This document shows, piece by piece, positions 25,638 to 37,512 of a DNA stretch of 64,000 nt. The notes beneath the pieces were generated by a model, which was not told the DNA's origin, did not search any database, and saw only the letters and a program-made list of their open reading frames with translations. The position numbers and the translations under genes are program-made. Source of the stretch: Bacteroidota bacterium (GTDB lineage: Bacteria > Bacteroidota > Ignavibacteria > Ignavibacteriales > Ignavibacteriaceae); NCBI GenBank assembly GCA_021813585.1, contig JAKAJV010000022.1, positions 1-64,000 on the forward strand. Reading direction: 5' to 3'. The stretch's first letter is position 1, and each line of letters opens with the position of its first letter.

Positions 25638-25684
25638 TTTTTATATTTACGGTTTAGTTCAATTCCCTTAGCCGGAATTTGTCG

Positions 25685-26305
25685 ATGGAAAAAAGAAGGA
25701 AAATAAAAGTCGCGGTTACCGGCGGAATTGGCTCGGGTAAAACGCTGTTCTGCGAATTTTTATCCGGCATCGGAATACCTGTTATAAATGTAGATGAGGT
25801 TTCTAAAGAGCTGCTAGACACTAATCCTGAAATCCGCTCCGCCATAATTAAGGAATTCGGAAGCCAGTCCTTTAACGGCAATACCGCAAACAGGCAGTAC
25901 CTTGCCGAAGCTGTTTTCTCTAATCCCCGGAATGTAATTAAGATAAATTCAATAATTCACCCCCATGTTATAAAAAAAGTTAATATTTTAGCAGACGAAA
26001 AATTGAAGAGCTTTGACATAGTGGTTGCCGAGGCGGCTTTAATTTATGAAGCCGGTATGGAAAAATATTTTGACTATGTCGTGCTGGTTTCGTCTGAACT
26101 AAATTTAAGAATGAAGCGGAAAGTGGAAGGCAACAGGTTAACCGAAGAACAGTTTTACAGTAGAAATGAAAACCAGATACCTGATGAGGAAAAGAAGAAG
26201 CGTGCGGATTTTATATTTGAAAATAACGGCAGTGCCGAAGAGCTGCAGGCCAAAGCCTTTCTACTCGCAAATATTCTGAAAGGATTATCGACAGGAAATG
26301 TATAA
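25685..26305 (+). CDS. coaE: Dephospho-CoA kinase
   Basis: About 206 residues. P-loop VTGGIGSGKTLFCEFL at the N terminus, VDEVSKELL and the lid region with LRMKRKVEGNRLTEEQFYSR. It performs the last step of coenzyme A synthesis. ATG at 25685 is preferred to TTG at 25679. It overlaps pheA by 8 bases. Confidence 0.95.
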   Translation: MEKRRKIKVAVTGGIGSGKTLFCEFLSGIGIPVINVDEVSKELLDTNPEIRSAIIKEFGSQSFNGNTANRQYLAEAVFSNPRNVIKINSIIHPHVIKKVNILADEKLKSFDIVVAEAALIYEAGMEKYFDYVVLVSSELNLRMKRKVEGNRLTEEQFYSRNENQIPDEEKKKRADFIFENNGSAEELQAKAFLLANILKGLSTGNV

Positions 26306-27131
26306 AATTGCCTTCCAGGGCGAGCGCGGCGCCTTTAGCGAAATTGCCGCTAAGAAGATGTTCGGAGACAGCATTATAATCTCTCCATCGTTTTCATTTG
26401 AAGAAGTATTTGTAAAAGTAAAAAACGGGAGCGTAAATTTCGGCGTACTGCCTATCGAGAACTCGCTGTACGGCAGTATTTTTGAGACTTACGATTTGCT
26501 GCTTAAGTACTCGCTTACAATTGCCGGAGAGCTGAACCTGCAGATAAACCATCATCTTCTGGCAAAAAAGAATTTTAAGTTAAGCGAGATAAAAAAAGTT
26601 TTTTCCCATCCGCAGGCTCTCGGCCAGTGTTCGGACTTCTTAAAGAAATTAAAAAACGCAGCGGCGGTTCCGGCTTATGACACCGCCGGCTCTGCTATAC
26701 TTGCGCTTAAGGAAAACGGCGTACCGGCTGCGGTAATTGCAAGCAGGGAAGCCTCGGAAATTTACGACTTCAAAATCCTTAAGAGCAATATTCAGAACAA
26801 CAGGGAGAACTATACAAGGTTCCTGGTTATAAGTAAAAGCAGGGTTAAAAAGCAGTTCGCTGTTCCTAAGACTTCAATTTGCTTTGAGCTGAAGAGCATA
26901 CCCGGTGCTTTATTTAAGGCGCTGAGTGTTTTTGCCTTAAGAGATATTGACCTGCTTAAAATTGAGTCCCGCCCGATTCCTCACAAGCCGTTCCAGTACA
27001 TGTTTTATACTGACCTGTATGGGAGCCTGGATGACGGCAGAATAAAGAAAGCGATAAGCCATCTGTCGGAAATATCGCTTAGCATTAAAAAGTTCGGTAC
27101 GTATGAAGCAGGAAAAACTTACAAAAGTTAA
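26298..27131 (+). CDS. pheA: Prephenate dehydratase (no chorismate mutase domain)
   Basis: 277 residues. The dehydratase domain (about 1-180) opens FQGERGAFSEIAAKKMFG and contains GVLPIENSLYGSI; the ACT domain (about 190-275) has KIESRPIPHKPFQYMFYTDL, the ESRP phenylalanine-binding motif. It converts prephenate to phenylpyruvate and is expected to be inhibited by phenylalanine. It lacks the chorismate mutase domain of enteric PheA; a mutase domain is instead found fused to MltG 2 kb downstream. Part of a coaE-pheA unit. Confidence 0.95.
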   Translation: MYKIAFQGERGAFSEIAAKKMFGDSIIISPSFSFEEVFVKVKNGSVNFGVLPIENSLYGSIFETYDLLLKYSLTIAGELNLQINHHLLAKKNFKLSEIKKVFSHPQALGQCSDFLKKLKNAAAVPAYDTAGSAILALKENGVPAAVIASREASEIYDFKILKSNIQNNRENYTRFLVISKSRVKKQFAVPKTSICFELKSIPGALFKALSVFALRDIDLLKIESRPIPHKPFQYMFYTDLYGSLDDGRIKKAISHLSEISLSIKKFGTYEAGKTYKS

Positions 27132-27200: not shown

Positions 27201-28100
27201 GTGTCGTTCTTTAATAAAATTATTGTAGCGATTGTCCAGCTAATGCCAAAAGCAATAGTCGGGATTTTCTCTAGAAGATATATTGCCGGAGAAACACTCG
27301 GTGAGGCGATTGATCTGGTTAAAAATTTGAATTCAAAAGGTATTTATGCAACCATAGATGTTTTAGGTGAAGCGATAAAAAACAAAGACGAGGCAATAAC
27401 CTCTAAAAAGAAGGCGCTCCAGGTATTTGATTCAATTATTCAAAATAATCTGAAGGCGAACCTATCTATTAAGCCTACGCAGATGGGCTTAAGCATAGAT
27501 GAAGATTTTGCATATGAACAGATATCGGAGCTTGTGGAAAGAGCAAAGCAAATCGACAACTTTGTCCGCATCGATATGGAAGACTCTCCCTTTACAGATG
27601 CTACCTTTAAGCTCTACAAAAGGCTTAGAGAAAATTATGATAACACCGGTGTAGTAGTTCAGGCGTATCTAAAACGTACCTACGATGATGTTGTAGTACT
27701 GAATAAGCTGGGCACCAACTACAGGCTTTGCAAAGGAATTTATATAGAGTCGCCGAATATTGCGTACAAAGATAAGCAGGTTATAAGAGATAATTATTTA
27801 AAGATACTTGAGACGATCCTGAAATCCGGTAATTACGTGGGCATTGCAACTCATGATGAGCATCTTATTAAAGGCGCCTACAAGCTGATTAAGGATTTGA
27901 ATATACTGAAAGATAAGTTTGAGTTCCAGATGCTTCTCGGCGTAAGAGAAGACCTCCGCGATAGGATAAATAAAGACGGTTACAAGATCAGGGTATACGT
28001 ACCGTTCGGCAAGGACTGGTATCCATATTCTATCAGAAGATTAAAAGAAAATCCGCAGATAGCCGGATACATTTTTAAAAGTTTGTTTTTAATAAAGTAA
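27201..28100 (+). CDS. Proline dehydrogenase
   Basis: 299 residues forming a PRODH (beta-alpha)8 barrel; the C-terminal motif YPYSIRRLKENPQIAGYIF matches the substrate-binding YxxRRLxEN helix of PutA/PRODH enzymes. It oxidises proline to pyrroline-5-carboxylate with FAD, passing electrons to quinone. It starts at GTG 27201, 8 bases after AGGAG. The monofunctional size implies a separate P5C dehydrogenase elsewhere. It overlaps tsaD by one base. Confidence 0.9.
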   Translation: MSFFNKIIVAIVQLMPKAIVGIFSRRYIAGETLGEAIDLVKNLNSKGIYATIDVLGEAIKNKDEAITSKKKALQVFDSIIQNNLKANLSIKPTQMGLSIDEDFAYEQISELVERAKQIDNFVRIDMEDSPFTDATFKLYKRLRENYDNTGVVVQAYLKRTYDDVVVLNKLGTNYRLCKGIYIESPNIAYKDKQVIRDNYLKILETILKSGNYVGIATHDEHLIKGAYKLIKDLNILKDKFEFQMLLGVREDLRDRINKDGYKIRVYVPFGKDWYPYSIRRLKENPQIAGYIFKSLFLIK

Positions 28101-29113
28101 TGAATGTGCTAGGAATAGAAAGCTCGTGCGATGAAACATCAGTCGCTATAATTTCCAATGAGAAGTTGACCGCTAATTTAATCTCCTCCCAGGATTTCCA
28201 TTCGAAATACGGCGGCGTTGTGCCAGAGCTTTCCAGCCGTGCCCATTTGCAGATTGTTATCCCCTTGGTGAAGGATGCACTAAAAAAATCCGGTTTAAAT
28301 TTGAACGACATCGATGTTATTTGCTCGACTGCAGGGCCCGGTTTAATTGGCGCTTTGCTAGTGGGACTTACTTTTGCCAAAGGGCTTTCATATTCTTTAA
28401 ACAAGCCGTTTGTTGCGGTCAACCATATTGAGGGTCATATTTTTTCCGGCTTCTTAATGGAAGACAAACCGGAGTTTCCGTTTCTTGCTTTGGTAGTTTC
28501 CGGCGGGCATACTTTGCTGCTTCTTGTTGAAAGCTTTACCGTGGTAAAAAAGCTGGGAACCACTGTGGACGATGCTGCCGGCGAAGCGTTTGATAAGGTT
28601 GCCAAGATGCTGGGGTTCGGCTATCCTGGCGGGCCTAAAATTCAAACGGCAGCCTTAGACGGAGATGCCGGAAAAATTAATTTCCCGGTTGCGGAATTAA
28701 AAGATCCGTATAACTTTTCTTTTAGCGGATTAAAGACTGCGGTGCTTAGGTATATTCAAAAGAACTATCCGGGCGTTCAAAACATTCCCGGAAACGATTT
28801 GAAGGATATAGCTGCCTCTTTTCAAAATGCGGTTGTTAAAGCATTAATAAGAAATACCGAGAAGGCATTAAATAATTATGATGTAAATTCGGTTTCTTTG
28901 GTAGGCGGAGTGGCTGCCAACAAGGCGCTAAGGGAATCGATGATTGGCCTGGCCGGAAAATACGGGAAGAAAATTGTAATACCCGGGCTGGAATTCTGCG
29001 GCGACAATGCAGCAATGATCGCATTTAGAGGAGCCAGGCTCTATGAAACCGGCTACCGGTCGGGATTGGATTACAGCCCGTTCCCCGGATTATCGAGTGA
29101 GCATTTTTCGTAA
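28100..29113 (+). CDS. tsaD: tRNA N6-threonylcarbamoyladenosine synthase TsaD
   Basis: 337 residues, ASKHA fold. LGIESSCDETSVAI at the N terminus, metal ligands in VNHIEGHIFSGF (HxxxH) and the nucleotide-binding VVSGGHTLL; a GGVAANKALRE motif near 273. It transfers the threonylcarbamoyl group to A37 of ANN-decoding tRNAs, with TsaB/C/E encoded elsewhere. Confidence 0.97.
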   Translation: MNVLGIESSCDETSVAIISNEKLTANLISSQDFHSKYGGVVPELSSRAHLQIVIPLVKDALKKSGLNLNDIDVICSTAGPGLIGALLVGLTFAKGLSYSLNKPFVAVNHIEGHIFSGFLMEDKPEFPFLALVVSGGHTLLLLVESFTVVKKLGTTVDDAAGEAFDKVAKMLGFGYPGGPKIQTAALDGDAGKINFPVAELKDPYNFSFSGLKTAVLRYIQKNYPGVQNIPGNDLKDIAASFQNAVVKALIRNTEKALNNYDVNSVSLVGGVAANKALRESMIGLAGKYGKKIVIPGLEFCGDNAAMIAFRGARLYETGYRSGLDYSPFPGLSSEHFS

Positions 29114-29153
29114 CCTTTTTCTCTTCATCTAATTTCCTTATTTTTTGAAACCG

Positions 29154-30551
29154 ATGGATAATATTTATAAGAAAATTGAACTTGAACTCGACTCGCTCTC
29201 AAAGGAAGAGAGGAACGAAATCCTTTTAAGGCTGAGAGACGAAATTGATATAATTGATAGGCAGATTGTTCACCTGTTAAGCAAGCGTACGCTCCATTCG
29301 GTTTTAATAGGCAGGGTAAAGAGGACTTTAAATCTTCCAACGTATAACCCCGTAAGGGAAAAGCAGGTAAGCGAAAGGATAGGCTCGTTTGTGGAAGAGC
29401 CGCTAAGCAAGGAAGCGCTGCTTAGGATTTACGAGAGGATACTCGATGAGTCGCGCGCAATTCAGCGCGAGGAATCGGATAAGGGAAATATTTTTAACGT
29501 TTCGCAGGCGAAGATGAAAATTAAGTTGAGTCAGCTTCTTTCTAAAAAAGAATTTCTTGTTGTCTTTGCGTTCTTCATTATAGTCTTGAGCATTTTATAT
29601 TACACCTTCTTTACACCAAATTATTATAAGGGCTCTTCACCCGTAAAGATTGAAGTAAGACGAGGAGAAGCCTTTTCCGAGATAGTAGATGACCTTTATG
29701 CTAAAGGGATAATCCCTAGTAAAGCCAATATGAAGATAGCCAGTTTTATGTACGGCGCTGAAAAGAAAATTAAAGCTGCCCGCTACAGCGTTCCGAACGG
29801 CCTAAGTTACCTTGGTCTGGTAAATTTTCTTTTGACTGATCAGTCTGGTCTATTAAAGTCTGTTACGGTTTTAGACGGCTCGACGTTGGGCTGGATAGCA
29901 TTAAAGCTAAAAGACGATATACATGCCGATTCGCTAGAAGTTATTAGGCTGTGCAGCGATAAAGAATTCCTGGACTCTCTCGGGCTGAATGCGCAATCTC
30001 TTTTAGGCTACCTGCTGCCTCAAAAATATGATATCTATGCCGACAGTTCCCCACGGGAAGCGCTTAAAAAGATGTATGACGGATATAAATATTTTATGAC
30101 TGATTCCTTAAAGGCAAGGGCAAGGCAGCTCGGCTATTCGGTTCCTCAAATTATAACCATGGCCTCTATTATTGAAGGCGAGACGAACAATAAGCCCGAG
30201 ATGCCTGTTATTGCAGGCGTTTATTATAACAGGCTGAAAAAAGGCATGAAGCTGCAGGCGGACCCCACTATTGAATTTGCCAGGAAAGGGAAATGGGTTA
30301 GGCTTAACCATAATGATTTAAAGATAAATTCTCCGTATAATACGTACGAGCATTTCGGGCTTCCGCCGGGACCGATTGATAACCCAGGCAAGGCGGCAAT
30401 ACTGGCTGCCCTTTACCCGGACAAAAACGATTATCTATACTTCGTTGCCAACGGAGACGGCGGGCACCACTTCTCTTCAAATTTTCAAGAGCACGTACGC
30501 AATGCCGATAAATATAGAAAATGGCTGGATACATCAAAGAAAAAAAGGTAG
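29154..30551 (+). CDS. mltG: Chorismate mutase-MltG fusion (endolytic transglycosylase)
   Basis: 465 residues. Residues 21-106 match an AroQ-type chorismate mutase: R28, R45, K56, R68/E69, S100 and Q104 align with the E. coli catalytic R11, R28, K39, R51/E52, S84 and Q88. A membrane helix follows (132-150), then the MltG/YceG domain with the LysM-like part and catalytic glutamate in ASIIEGETNNKPE. The topology is consistent: mutase in the cytoplasm, glycan lyase in the periplasm, where MltG trims nascent peptidoglycan. ATG at 29154 is preferred to TTG at 29145. Confidence 0.92.
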   Translation: MDNIYKKIELELDSLSKEERNEILLRLRDEIDIIDRQIVHLLSKRTLHSVLIGRVKRTLNLPTYNPVREKQVSERIGSFVEEPLSKEALLRIYERILDESRAIQREESDKGNIFNVSQAKMKIKLSQLLSKKEFLVVFAFFIIVLSILYYTFFTPNYYKGSSPVKIEVRRGEAFSEIVDDLYAKGIIPSKANMKIASFMYGAEKKIKAARYSVPNGLSYLGLVNFLLTDQSGLLKSVTVLDGSTLGWIALKLKDDIHADSLEVIRLCSDKEFLDSLGLNAQSLLGYLLPQKYDIYADSSPREALKKMYDGYKYFMTDSLKARARQLGYSVPQIITMASIIEGETNNKPEMPVIAGVYYNRLKKGMKLQADPTIEFARKGKWVRLNHNDLKINSPYNTYEHFGLPPGPIDNPGKAAILAALYPDKNDYLYFVANGDGGHHFSSNFQEHVRNADKYRKWLDTSKKKR

Positions 30552-32677: not shown

Positions 32678-34159
32678 ATGAGAACAAATCAAATTACAGA
32701 TGAAGAGAGGCTTAAGGCTTTTAAATCGGTTAAAAAGCCAGAAGTAATTGATAAGCAAAAACTTGGTGTCCGGTACCATGTTGAAGACTTTGATGTAAAT
32801 GATAGGCCTAGAGGATTCCTTGAAGCCTTTGCTGCTATACTGAAGCATTCGAATTATAGAATGGTACTGGAACATTTTTCAAGGGTGAGTGCTAGGTGCT
32901 CTCACTGTGCAGTTGCCTGCCAGGTTTACCAGGCAACCGGCCGAAGGGAAGATATTCCATGCTACAGGTCAGAGCTTTTATTAAATGTTTACCGCCGTCA
33001 TTTTACGCTGGGCGGCTTGTTAAAAGGAAGGATCGCATCGGGCGATTATTTAACCGATGAAAAGATCCGGGAGATGGCGGAAAGCTTTTGGAACTGTACC
33101 GCGTGCAGAAGGTGCGCGCTCGAATGCCCCATGGGTATCGACCATGGATTAATTACTCACCTGGGCAGGTATATTTTAAGCGAGATAGGAATAGTGCCGC
33201 GGGCACTTGTAGTAAGCACAAGAGAGCAGCTGGAAGGCCCTACAAGAAATACTTCCGCCGTGCCTGTGCCGGCATTGAAAGATACGCTTGAATTTCTTGA
33301 AGACGACATGTTTGAAGAGAAATCGGTTAAAATAAGCTTTCCCCTGGATGTTCAGAATGCAGATTATGTTTTCTTCCCGGCCGTAAGCGACTTCCTTATG
33401 GAGGCCGAAACCTTAATGGGAATAGCAGCAGTTTTTAGAGCTACGGGCGACAAATGGACAATCGGTACCGGATATTATGACGGCATAAACTACGGGCTGT
33501 TTTACAGCGACCGTATTTTGGAACGGGTAATTAAAAATATAGATGTAGAAACAAAGAGGCTGAACGGAAAGAGCGTTCTTATAGGAGAATGCGGTCACGC
33601 CTCGCGGTCGGCTAAATATTTTTTACCTACCTTCTGCTGCGATAAAACCGCTTCACCGGTTTTAAATATAATTGAATATACATATAAAGCATGGAAAGAC
33701 GGCAAGATAAAGATTAAACCGGATGTTATAACCGAAAAAGTTGCTTATCACGATCCTTGTAATCTGGCAAGGCAGAGATGGATAATAAACCAGCCGCGCG
33801 AAATGCTGAAATCTTTCTGTAAGAATTATGTGGAAATGACTCCTTCCGGCGAAAATAATATTTGCTGCGGCGGCGGAGGCGGCACGGTTTCTATCGATGA
33901 GATTAGACCGTACAGAACAACTGTAGGCGGCAAGCTTAAAGCGGACCAGATAAGAAAATCCGGCTGCGAGGTACTGGTTGCACCGTGCGCTAACTGCAAA
34001 AAGCAATTAAGGGAACTGGTTGAAGATCAGGGAATAAACTGCCAGATAGTAGGTCTGCACGATTTGATTTATAAAGCGATAGAATTTGATGTTCCGCAGC
34101 CTGCAGATACTGAAGAATTATCTAACGGTAAGGGCGTAGCTCAAAAGGAGGGAAAATAA
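32678..34159 (+). CDS. HmcF-like iron-sulfur protein with heterodisulfide-type CCG domains
   Basis: 493 residues, cytoplasmic. Two ferredoxin motifs, RCSHCAVACQVY (about 68) and CTACRRCALECPMGID (about 139), precede two CCG domains ending in DPCNLARQRW, NNICCGGGGG and APCANCKKQL. This is the HdrD/DsrK/HmcF/TmcB family, which carries a special [4Fe-4S] site able to handle disulfides or thiols. The first motif has only three of the four usual cysteines; C in DIPCYRSE may complete it. The HmcE-like membrane partner follows 2 bases later. Assignment to Hmc rather than Tmc rests on neighbours, not on a tree. Confidence 0.8.
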   Translation: MRTNQITDEERLKAFKSVKKPEVIDKQKLGVRYHVEDFDVNDRPRGFLEAFAAILKHSNYRMVLEHFSRVSARCSHCAVACQVYQATGRREDIPCYRSELLLNVYRRHFTLGGLLKGRIASGDYLTDEKIREMAESFWNCTACRRCALECPMGIDHGLITHLGRYILSEIGIVPRALVVSTREQLEGPTRNTSAVPVPALKDTLEFLEDDMFEEKSVKISFPLDVQNADYVFFPAVSDFLMEAETLMGIAAVFRATGDKWTIGTGYYDGINYGLFYSDRILERVIKNIDVETKRLNGKSVLIGECGHASRSAKYFLPTFCCDKTASPVLNIIEYTYKAWKDGKIKIKPDVITEKVAYHDPCNLARQRWIINQPREMLKSFCKNYVEMTPSGENNICCGGGGGTVSIDEIRPYRTTVGGKLKADQIRKSGCEVLVAPCANCKKQLRELVEDQGINCQIVGLHDLIYKAIEFDVPQPADTEELSNGKGVAQKEGK

Positions 34160-34161
34160 TT

Positions 34162-34866
34162 ATGAGTTCTATTTTGGAATTTGCCCGCGGACCGTTATTC
34201 AGGCTTTGCTTTGCGTTAATGATACTCGGCCTGGCAAGAATTTTATTCCTGGATGTTTGGGGGGCGTACAAAGCTTTAAGAAAAGCCGGCGATAAAAAAA
34301 TGCCGTGGAAATTAATCTTAAGCCGCACATGGGAATGGATTTTTCCCTTAAAGAGGATGAAGAATAATTTCCATTTCTATTCACTCCTCTCCATTCTGTT
34401 CCATGTAGGTTTAATAATCGTCCCGGTATTTTTATTTGCTCATATTCAGCTCTGGAAAATTTCGGTAGGAATTTTCTGGCCGTCGCTTCCGTTTAATTGG
34501 GCGCTTATCCTAACTGTAAGTACTATTGTCTTTGCATTTCTAATGCTGTTGGGGCGCATTATAATTAAGCCTATAAAAGAATTAAGCAAAGGTCAGGATT
34601 ATCTCTGGCTGCTTTTACTGCTAGTGCCTTTTACCACCGGATTCATATGCGTTAATTTCAGCATAAGCCCGGGTACATATCAGCTTCTAATGCTTTTTCA
34701 TGTTCTATCTGCCGATGTAATATTTCTGCTTATTCCTTTTTCAAAGATAGCGCACTGTGTTCTGGTGCCGTTATCTCAAATTATAAGTGGATTAGCCTGG
34801 AAATTTCCGCCTAGAACAGATGATGATATTTGCACAACTTTAAATAAAAAAGGAGCTCCGGTTTGA
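34162..34866 (+). CDS. HmcE-like membrane cytochrome b subunit
   Basis: 234 residues with about five membrane helices and histidines in or near them (SILFHVGLI, MLFHVLSAD, KIAHCVLV), as in the NarI/HmcE/DsrM family that binds heme b and exchanges electrons with quinones. GGAGGGA precedes the ATG. It sits between the HmcF-like and HmcB-like genes and should anchor the cytoplasmic iron-sulfur subunit. Size matches HmcE. Confidence 0.8.
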   Translation: MSSILEFARGPLFRLCFALMILGLARILFLDVWGAYKALRKAGDKKMPWKLILSRTWEWIFPLKRMKNNFHFYSLLSILFHVGLIIVPVFLFAHIQLWKISVGIFWPSLPFNWALILTVSTIVFAFLMLLGRIIIKPIKELSKGQDYLWLLLLLVPFTTGFICVNFSISPGTYQLLMLFHVLSADVIFLLIPFSKIAHCVLVPLSQIISGLAWKFPPRTDDDICTTLNKKGAPV

Positions 34867-35645
34867 GTAAAGGAATTTTAACCGATGTAACCAAATGCAT
34901 CGGCTGTCTTAAATGTGTATCCGCTTGCAAGGAAGTCAACCATCTGGAGATGGACGTCCCGAGAATATGGCAAAAGAACGACGGCCTGTCTGCAGAGAAT
35001 TGGACTTCGGTAATTCAAAGGACCGGCAACAGGTATGTAAGAAAACAATGCAGGCATTGCATCGAGCCGGCCTGCGCTTCTGTTTGCCTGGTTGGCGCAT
35101 TGCACAAAACCAGTATCGGGGCTGTAGTATACGACAGCAATAAGTGTCTCGGCTGCCGGTACTGCATGATGGCCTGTCCGTTCGGCATTCCGCGTTATGA
35201 TTGGGACAAGACAGTCCCCCATGTAGAAAAGTGCATACTTTGTTATGATAGGATTAAAGACGGCGAACAGCCTGCTTGTACAAAGGCTTGTCCTACGGGA
35301 GCTACAATTTTTGGAGACCGCTCCACACTTTTAGCCGTTGCACATAAAAGAATTAAAGATAATCCCGGAAAGTATATAAATAAAGTATGGGGCGAGCACG
35401 AAATAGGCGGAACCTCCGTAATGTATCTTTCAGATATCGATCTTGGATTTCTTCAATACCAAACGAATATGGGAACAAAGCCGCTGCCGGCAGATACCGC
35501 ACCTGCAATGAAATCGGTTCCGTTTGCTTTTGTAGGAATGGGCGGAGTAATGCTGGGGCTTAACTGGATAATCCGCAGGCGGATGGAACTAAGCAAAGAA
35601 CAAAGCGAGGAAAAAAGCAAGAAGAAGGAATCTGCAGATGAATAG
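34863..35645 (+). CDS. HmcB-like four-cluster ferredoxin subunit
   Basis: 260 residues with four [4Fe-4S] motifs: CIGCLKCVSACKEVNH, CRHCIEPACASVCLVGAL, CLGCRYCMMACPFGIP and CILCYDR...ACTKACPTGA. A C-terminal membrane helix (about 217-233) and charged tail follow. It has no Tat signal, so this wire is probably cytoplasmic, unlike DsrO at 56921. It starts at TTG 34863 overlapping the previous stop, and overlaps the NrfD-like gene by 8 bases. It should relay electrons between the membrane subunit and the HmcF-like protein. Confidence 0.82.
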   Translation: MSKGILTDVTKCIGCLKCVSACKEVNHLEMDVPRIWQKNDGLSAENWTSVIQRTGNRYVRKQCRHCIEPACASVCLVGALHKTSIGAVVYDSNKCLGCRYCMMACPFGIPRYDWDKTVPHVEKCILCYDRIKDGEQPACTKACPTGATIFGDRSTLLAVAHKRIKDNPGKYINKVWGEHEIGGTSVMYLSDIDLGFLQYQTNMGTKPLPADTAPAMKSVPFAFVGMGGVMLGLNWIIRRRMELSKEQSEEKSKKKESADE

Positions 35646-37512
35646 AGTACATAACGCCAAACTAATTTTGTGGATTATTACCGGGCTAGCGGCAGCCGTT
35701 GCGCTCAACCGGTATATTTTCGGTCTGGGTGTTACAACAAACCTAAACGACTCAACACCCTGGGGCTTTTGGATTGGCTTTGATGTAATGGGCGGAGTAG
35801 CGCTTGCAGCTGGCGGGTTTGTTATTACTTCAATCTTTTATATTATGAAGAGGGAAGAATTCCATTCTCTTGTAAAGCCGGCGGTATTAACTGCATTCCT
35901 CGGTTACCTTGCCGTTATTTTCGGATTGCTGGTAGATTTAGGCTTGCCGTGGAATATCTGGCACATGATAATTTATTGGAACCCTCATTCACCTCTGTTT
36001 GAAGTAGGCTGGTGCGTAATGCTTTACACTGCGGTTCTGATTTTGGAGTTCAGCCCGGTGCCGCTGGAGAAGTTTAGCAGGTACGCTAAAATAAGAAGCT
36101 TCCTTATGAAGTTCCGGTTTGTTTTTGTACTGCTCGGCATTATGCTTTCTACTTTGCATCAATCTTCGCTAGGCACTTTATTTTTGATTATGCCGTTTAA
36201 GCTTTATCCTCTCTGGTATTCGAACATTCTGCCGGTTCAATTTTTTATTTCGGCAGTATCGATCGGCTTAATGATGGTTGCTTTTGAGAGCCTGGTTTCT
36301 CACTGGCTTTATAGGCGCAAGCCGGAAACCGATCTGGTTGCCAAGCTTTGCAGGGCTGTTGTTTGGGTGCTGGCCTTGTACTTCTTAGTAAAGATGATTG
36401 ATATTATTGCCGAAGGTAAATTTGGTCTTATTTTTAACGGAACCTGGCAGAGCAATCTTTTTATTTTTGAAGTTCTGATCTCCACTATAATTCCATCGGC
36501 AATATTCTCCGCACCTAAGTTATGCAAGAACGTAAAAGCTCAGTGGATTGGTTCATTCATGGTAATTGCCGGCATGGTGCTAAACCGGTTGGATGTGGGC
36601 GGGTTAGTTATGCTCGGCGCTACCGGCGATTCATACACCCCGGCGTGGACGGAAATAATTATCAGTCTCGGAATTGTTTCTATTGCTGCATTGGTCTTTT
36701 TATTTGTTATCGAGAACTTCCATATCTGGGATATTCAACCAGAGGACCCGGAGGCGAATCCTCATGCCTTGCCGACATTCGATTATTCATCCAGAGCTTG
36801 GCTGGGCAACCCGAATGTTTCTTCAATTACAAAGCACTCGCTTGCATTTATAATAAGCTTTGCCGCCGGTATGGCATTAATGCCGGGTAATCATTTGTAC
36901 AGCAAGGGCATTGATAGTATTAAAGTAAGCCGGGCAACAGGGGTGGACACTTTATACATCAACGGCAACCGGGATGATCAGTACGTTAAATTCCCGCATC
37001 AGGCACACATTGAAAAGCTCGGCAAAGACAGTTGTAATTATTGTCATCACTTAAATCTCCCTGATGAAAAACTAAGCATGTGCTGGGAATGCCATTCTAG
37101 TATGTATGCTAAAGTAAATTTCTTTAGGCACGATTGGCATGCATCAGCAAAAGGAGCGAACCTAAGGTGCAATGATTGCCATAAGCCGGGTGAAGCACGG
37201 AGTGTCAAATCCGCAAAGAGTTGCACCTCTTGCCATCCTACTTATAATTTTGCTGATACAACCAATACTCACCTAAAGCATTATATCCTTTCTTATACGG
37301 ATGCAATGCACAATTTATGTGTCTCGTGCCATCTAATTGAATTGAAAAAACAGCTTGTTAAAGATAAGCCTAATCTTGCTCAATGTTCGACTTGTCATAA
37401 AGCGGGCCTTCACCAAATTATAACGGAAGATATAAATTGGAAAATTAAATTACCGCATTTTAATAATGTAATTCTTCCGAATGCTAAGCAGGTAGAAATG
37501 GAAATGAAATGA
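35638..37512 (+). CDS. HmcC/NrfD-like membrane protein fused to a hexaheme cytochrome c
   Basis: 624 residues. About residues 1-370 form the polytopic NrfD/PsrC/HmcC fold (quinone-reactive, ten helices or so). An extra helix near 400-420 (SLAFIISFAAGMALM) leads to a C-terminal domain with six CxxCH heme sites: CNYCH (466), CWECH, CNDCH, CTSCH, CVSCH and CSTCH. The extra helix would place the hemes in the periplasm, where cytochrome c is matured. In known Hmc the cytochrome is a separate protein (HmcA); here it appears fused. It would connect periplasmic electron donors to the quinone pool or cytoplasm. Confidence 0.85.
   Translation: MNRVHNAKLILWIITGLAAAVALNRYIFGLGVTTNLNDSTPWGFWIGFDVMGGVALAAGGFVITSIFYIMKREEFHSLVKPAVLTAFLGYLAVIFGLLVDLGLPWNIWHMIIYWNPHSPLFEVGWCVMLYTAVLILEFSPVPLEKFSRYAKIRSFLMKFRFVFVLLGIMLSTLHQSSLGTLFLIMPFKLYPLWYSNILPVQFFISAVSIGLMMVAFESLVSHWLYRRKPETDLVAKLCRAVVWVLALYFLVKMIDIIAEGKFGLIFNGTWQSNLFIFEVLISTIIPSAIFSAPKLCKNVKAQWIGSFMVIAGMVLNRLDVGGLVMLGATGDSYTPAWTEIIISLGIVSIAALVFLFVIENFHIWDIQPEDPEANPHALPTFDYSSRAWLGNPNVSSITKHSLAFIISFAAGMALMPGNHLYSKGIDSIKVSRATGVDTLYINGNRDDQYVKFPHQAHIEKLGKDSCNYCHHLNLPDEKLSMCWECHSSMYAKVNFFRHDWHASAKGANLRCNDCHKPGEARSVKSAKSCTSCHPTYNFADTTNTHLKHYILSYTDAMHNLCVSCHLIELKKQLVKDKPNLAQCSTCHKAGLHQIITEDINWKIKLPHFNNVILPNAKQVEMEMK

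Follow-up and report, generated by a model that had tools for sequence, protein, structure and literature searches.

A chorismate mutase domain on a cell-wall enzyme

Which protein produces prephenate in a bacterium whose prephenate dehydratase carries no mutase domain, and why would this step be joined to a cell-wall enzyme? The question is raised by positions 29154-30551 (+) of the window (the whole stretch of 64,000 nucleotides that was analysed), where an earlier note had proposed a chorismate mutase (CM) fused to MltG. The fusion is confirmed. The region is one uninterrupted ORF with an ATG start at 29154 and a product of 465 amino acids, Pfam finds exactly two domains in this product (CM_2 and YceG), and the same fusion, with its start and length kept, is present in relatives. 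An in-frame TTG at 29145 lies nine bases 5' of the ATG at 29154, with which the starts of relatives align. We regard it as very probable that the product is a membrane-anchored bifunctional protein that holds both the sole CM and MltG, that it derives from merged neighbouring genes, and that its two activities are probably independent.

From N to C terminus, the protein consists of an AroQ-type CM, a transmembrane helix and a complete MltG. The AroQ (CM_2) domain occupies aa 27-105 (29232-29468, +). A variable linker of about aa 111-133 (29484-29552, +) connects it to a predicted transmembrane helix at aa 134-152 (29553-29609, +), for which hydrophobicity, charge and an AlphaFold2 (AF2) model agree, and the YceG/MltG endolytic transglycosylase domain follows at aa 166-453 (29649-30512, +). 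Because five K/R residues precede the transmembrane segment and two follow it, the N terminus is predicted to lie inside the cell, in keeping with the proposal that the CM is the cytoplasmic part of a membrane-anchored protein. A single N-terminal transmembrane anchor with a periplasmic catalytic domain, as predicted here, is the layout of MltG-type proteins.

The window gene also contains a possible internal start (ATG at aa 121) that could yield some free MltG. A conserved start of this kind is rejected, since this ATG is not kept in relatives, and two fused relatives (G038 and G072) have no start codon in the 40 codons preceding the membrane helix. A scan for promoters and terminators gave results at chance level.

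Active site and fold of the two domains

The CM_2 profile (PF01817) matches aa 27-105 over 80/80 positions (E=1.1e-19; 70.8 bits vs a cut-off of 27). Several CM equivalog models of NCBIfam match the same part, all below their own cut-offs, which places it outside every named CM sub-group. The catalytic residues of E. coli AroQ are Arg11', Arg28, Lys39, Arg51, Glu52, Ser84 and Gln88. In the fusion this set corresponds to R28, R45, K56, R68, E69, S100 and Q104, exactly as had been read from the window earlier, and N65 stands where E. coli has Asp48. Among 46 CM domains that are fused to MltG or adjoin it, the Arg/Arg/Lys/Arg/Glu set is invariant and Ser is replaced by Thr in one. The last catalytic site is Gln in families f1 and f3 and Glu in f5, f7, f10, f18 and f19; Glu in place of the Gln88 equivalent occurs in other active CMs (PMC7762937).

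Structure comparisons lead to the same assignment. Sequence matches of the N-terminal part in the PDB are CMs of Pyrococcus furiosus, Thermus thermophilus, Bartonella, Helicobacter pylori and E. coli. In the AF2 model, a long first helix (residues 17-58) is followed by helices at 66-77 and 86-110, as in the three-helix AroQ protomer. Foldseek aligns this part with T. thermophilus CM (2d8e) at an rmsd of 1.0 and a TM score (target) of 0.88; over 2d8e, 5gmu, 6al9 and 1ecm the TM score (target) is 0.83-0.91, and for 2d8e, 5gmu and 1ecm the rmsd is about 1-1.5 Å. Judged from its sequence, the CM domain of the fusion is almost certainly catalytically active. The model, a monomer of the full fusion with the membrane helix at 131-153, has a mean pLDDT of 81.8, with low values at aa 117-124 and poor modelling of residues 368-405; its pTM is only 0.59, so that it does not fix the mutual placement of CM and MltG.

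The C-terminal part is an MltG by profile and by fold. PF02618 (YceG/MltG) matches aa 166-453 (E=8.1e-77; 258.8 bits), TIGR00247 (the NCBIfam MltG model) scores 216.6 bits vs a cut-off of 103.4, the PDB sequence matches are the MltG/YceG structures 8yq7, 4iiw and 2r1f, and the AF2 model of this part shows the MltG fold and matches MltG structures in Foldseek. The catalytic Glu is E343, which is invariant in 24 fusions and presumably corresponds to E218 of E. coli, as placed by a motif alignment with the E. coli sequence. E. coli MltG E218Q is an inactive mutant (PMC8135044).

The only chorismate mutase of the genome

The source genome (4.54 Mb in 142 contigs, 99.95% complete) contains one CM_2 match and one YceG match, and both are the fusion gene. 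Searches of this genome found no second AroQ-type CM (CM_2), no AroH-type CM (CM_1) and no second MltG (YceG). TyrA (PDH_N), PheA and chorismate synthase (AroC) are all present, the gene for the last being split across two contig ends, and TyrA, chorismate synthase and PheA are also present in most of the fused relatives tested. The next enzyme of the pathway is encoded 2 kb upstream of the fusion by pheA (26298-27131, +), which specifies a prephenate dehydratase (PDT) and an ACT domain alone, as had been noted before. As there is no other CM, the Phe/Tyr branch would seem to have a gap unless the fused domain works, and this domain should be the chorismate mutase of the source genome. The suggestion that the fusion supplies the missing step thus gains support from the sole copy, the presence of PheA, TyrA and AroC, and the conserved active site; neither a second CM in this genome nor loss of the catalytic residues in orthologues was seen.

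In the mechanism that we propose, the cytoplasmic AroQ domain would act as the cell's only chorismate mutase and convert chorismate to prephenate, which would feed the CM-less PheA and a separate TyrA, while the periplasmic MltG domain would cut nascent glycan strands. The two activities probably work independently on one polypeptide. AroQ is an intertwined dimer, and for this reason the fusion probably makes MltG a dimer too.

Distribution among relatives

A search for the architecture of CM, membrane helix and MltG recovered it well beyond the source genome. In a survey of 80 genomes of the family, an uninterrupted fusion occurs in 21, namely 12 genomes of the genus (source included) and 9 others. 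Uninterrupted fusions are also found in two further families and in two further MAG contigs, JARLHB010000549.1 (Ignavibacteriaceae) and PLNZ01000127.1 (Ignavibacteriales), whose genes are close relatives of the window gene. Among the matches listed from 395 genomes of the phylum, in which fused genes rank first, no uninterrupted fusion lies outside the class.

In each of the 21 family genomes with a fusion, the fused copy is the single CM_2 match, and 31 of the 59 non-fused genomes have a CM located elsewhere (Fisher p=4e-6, with kinship ignored). The forms of CM elsewhere that were examined are a CM-PDT-ACT-DAHPS protein of about 690 aa and a DAHPS-CM protein of about 360 aa. The former, a trifunctional CM-PDT-ACT-DAHP synthase (for example L071:195-2210, - strand, and L073:1726-3822, + strand), stands in for the MltG-linked CM in genomes of sister family f2 and in some of f1.

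Gene neighbourhood and origin of the fusion

The fusion gene ends a same-strand run that begins with coaE (25679-26305, +), which overlaps pheA, and continues through pheA, a proline dehydrogenase gene (27201-28100, +) and tsaD (28100-29113, +). The whole genus and a large part of the family share this run, and tsaD is conserved immediately upstream of the fusion in most relatives examined. Relatives in families f1, f3, f5, f7, f10 and f19 have a separate aroQ directly upstream of mltG, and the same arrangement is found in Chlorobiaceae-like genomes outside the class. In unfused pairs there is either an overlap of a few bases or a shared frame with a single stop between the genes; in L003, L005, L007 and L015 of family f7, the aroQ stop codon is followed directly by the mltG ATG. 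In families f10 and f19, trpA (tryptophan synthase alpha; L075:8181-8975 and L080:1464-2249) lies between tsaD and the aroQ/CM-mltG unit, and is a second aromatic gene of this neighbourhood.

In a tree of 60 MltG domains, fused genes occur in f1, f10 and f18, and unfused members fall inside f1 and f10. Well-supported branches force at least seven changes of the fused label, in which fusion and re-splitting are not separable case by case. Read from gene order and from this tree, the pairing of aroQ with mltG is old in Ignavibacteria and Chlorobiaceae-like lineages, and the pair became fused in at least three families. That aroQ often stands as a gene of its own immediately before mltG points to a fusion of neighbours, and the present gene most likely arose by the merging of two adjacent genes and not as a regulatory switch. 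The stop/start boundary between these tightly packed genes would have been lost on at least three occasions, each an independent origin of the fusion from the same conserved pair.

For relatives in which a single stop intervenes (families f7 and f37), programmed readthrough of this stop was also weighed. The stop varies among TAG, TAA and TGA and a start codon is usually close behind, the frames of the two genes differ in other relatives, and ordinary adjacent genes suffice; readthrough was therefore rejected.

Selection and loss

Constraint falls most heavily on the CM part of the protein. Pairwise dN/dS, from pairs with unsaturated synonymous sites, is 0.025-0.034 for CM, about 0.03-0.095 for MltG (lowest 0.029) and 0.079-0.31 for the linker, although several dS values exceed 1 and the ratios are rough. 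By this measure, constraint on the CM equals or exceeds that on the transglycosylase, and the linker evolves as a spacer would.

Losses give a complementary view. G180, a genome in one closed contig, has neither CM, PDT nor PDH_N and retains AroC together with a CM-less MltG; pheA is absent from the same gene run, and all six genomes of its genus have no CM_2. This suggests a loss of Phe/Tyr synthesis with chorismate synthase retained. In two genomes with other CMs (G165 and G125), the MltG-linked copies are diverged, scoring 98 and 112 bits where sole copies score 119-137 bits; in a third such genome (G130), the linked copy is not diverged (123 bits). Divergence among fused CMs is greatest in G157 (95.8 bits), in which PDT and PDH_N were not detected; the domain there retains almost every active-site residue and might serve a different function. 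PDT was likewise not detected in G248, although its aroQ adjoins mltG, and the sole PDH_N match of G251 is below the family cut-off. In genomes that have lost pheA and tyrA or that possess another CM, the MltG-linked copy is absent or inclined to diverge, which supports a conventional metabolic role for it. The pattern fits a CM kept for Phe/Tyr synthesis, imperfectly in view of G157 and G248.

Other explanations for the fusion

The earlier note had supposed that the fusion could tie wall synthesis and growth rate together. In principle, AroQ occupied by chorismate, by prephenate or by an aromatic end product could alter the activity or dimer state of MltG and so tune glycan length, and the repeated origin of the fusion seen in the MltG tree and the retention of a CM without PDT and PDH_N in G157 are in favour of this. 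The MltG proteins of Streptococcus pneumoniae and Enterococcus faecalis also combine a transmembrane segment and a periplasmic YceG domain with a cytoplasmic N-terminal extension, and that of E. faecalis, a predicted disordered segment, is a target of phosphorylation that affects function (PMC8135044, PMC12369325). In the fusion, however, the extension comprises an entire metabolic enzyme, and the E. faecalis case is a precedent for regulation of MltG through a cytoplasmic part, not evidence for such a role of CM. Many close relatives have the pair unfused or an MltG with no CM at all, and the CM has been lost or moved while MltG stays. Moreover, the linker evolves fast and is disordered-like at aa 117-124, making it a poor signal path, and neither an ACT or other effector domain nor any ligand-binding or regulatory element was found in the protein. 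The proposed link is thus unsupported, and we consider a regulatory fusion unlikely. It is quite unlikely, too, that AroQ is both mutase and sensor, with its occupancy or dimer state relayed via the membrane helix so that aromatic flux sets glycan length.

The CM domain might instead be a dead relic, or serve merely as a dimerisation or membrane-topology module for MltG. An intertwined AroQ dimer could act as a clamp, and the G157 domain persists despite its divergence and the lack of detectable PDT/PDH. The conservation of catalytic residues in 46 sequences, the strongest purifying selection of the whole protein on CM and its status as sole CM in prototrophic-looking genomes make this very unlikely. 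An assembly or frameshift artefact that joined two genes might seem plausible in that many relatives have the pair in one frame with one stop, where a single base error could join them. It is ruled out, to a negligible residual probability, by the uninterrupted fusion in independent genomes (the 21 of the family, the two further families and the two separate MAGs), and in some fused genes the stretch from CM to the membrane helix contains no start codon. We therefore retain the bifunctional protein with probably independent activities as the best explanation.

Relation to known proteins

By every feature that could be compared, the fusion belongs to both AroQ and MltG, and in its domain content it is a new combination outside the described bifunctional CM families. 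Those families (the PheA P-protein CM-PDT, the TyrA T-protein CM-PDH, and DAHPS-CM) resemble it in fold, catalytic residues, the often N-terminal CM and the cytoplasmic supply of prephenate. Their hallmark is a second domain from the aromatic pathway, whereas the only partner here is YceG, a predicted periplasmic cell-wall enzyme that shares no metabolite with the CM and would tie it to the membrane. Exported fusions of CM and cyclohexadienyl dehydratase (CDT) are likewise unusual and outside the standard set; unlike the present CM, which is predicted to be cytoplasmic and is the sole copy, they are exported, rare and found beside a cytoplasmic CM-PDT (PMC10520331). In that study, fusion gave no catalytic benefit, and coordinated expression was discussed instead (PMC10520331).

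We found no description of a CM-MltG architecture in the openly licensed literature, searching for CM in combination with MltG (also as YceG or endolytic transglycosylase) or with Ignavibacteria. Within that literature, no earlier case would be on record of a central amino-acid enzyme whose sole copy is attached to a cell-wall enzyme. The fused CM would close an apparent missing-mutase gap in genomes of an uncultured group of Ignavibacteria, and annotation of the protein as just "MltG" would lead to these organisms being reported as Phe/Tyr auxotrophs.

A proteobacterial pabC-mltG neighbourhood (PA2964-PA2963 of Pseudomonas) also places mltG next to a gene of a chorismate-derived pathway, although PabC is unrelated to AroQ, acts in folate synthesis and is encoded by a separate gene (PMC11898565). 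Together with the long-lived aroQ-mltG pair, this makes it worth asking whether there is some reason for mltG to lie beside genes of chorismate enzymes. Further downstream in the window, 32678-37512 contains iron-sulfur/NrfD-like and cytochrome-like genes that, by sequence only, resemble DsrMKJOP-type membrane redox complexes.
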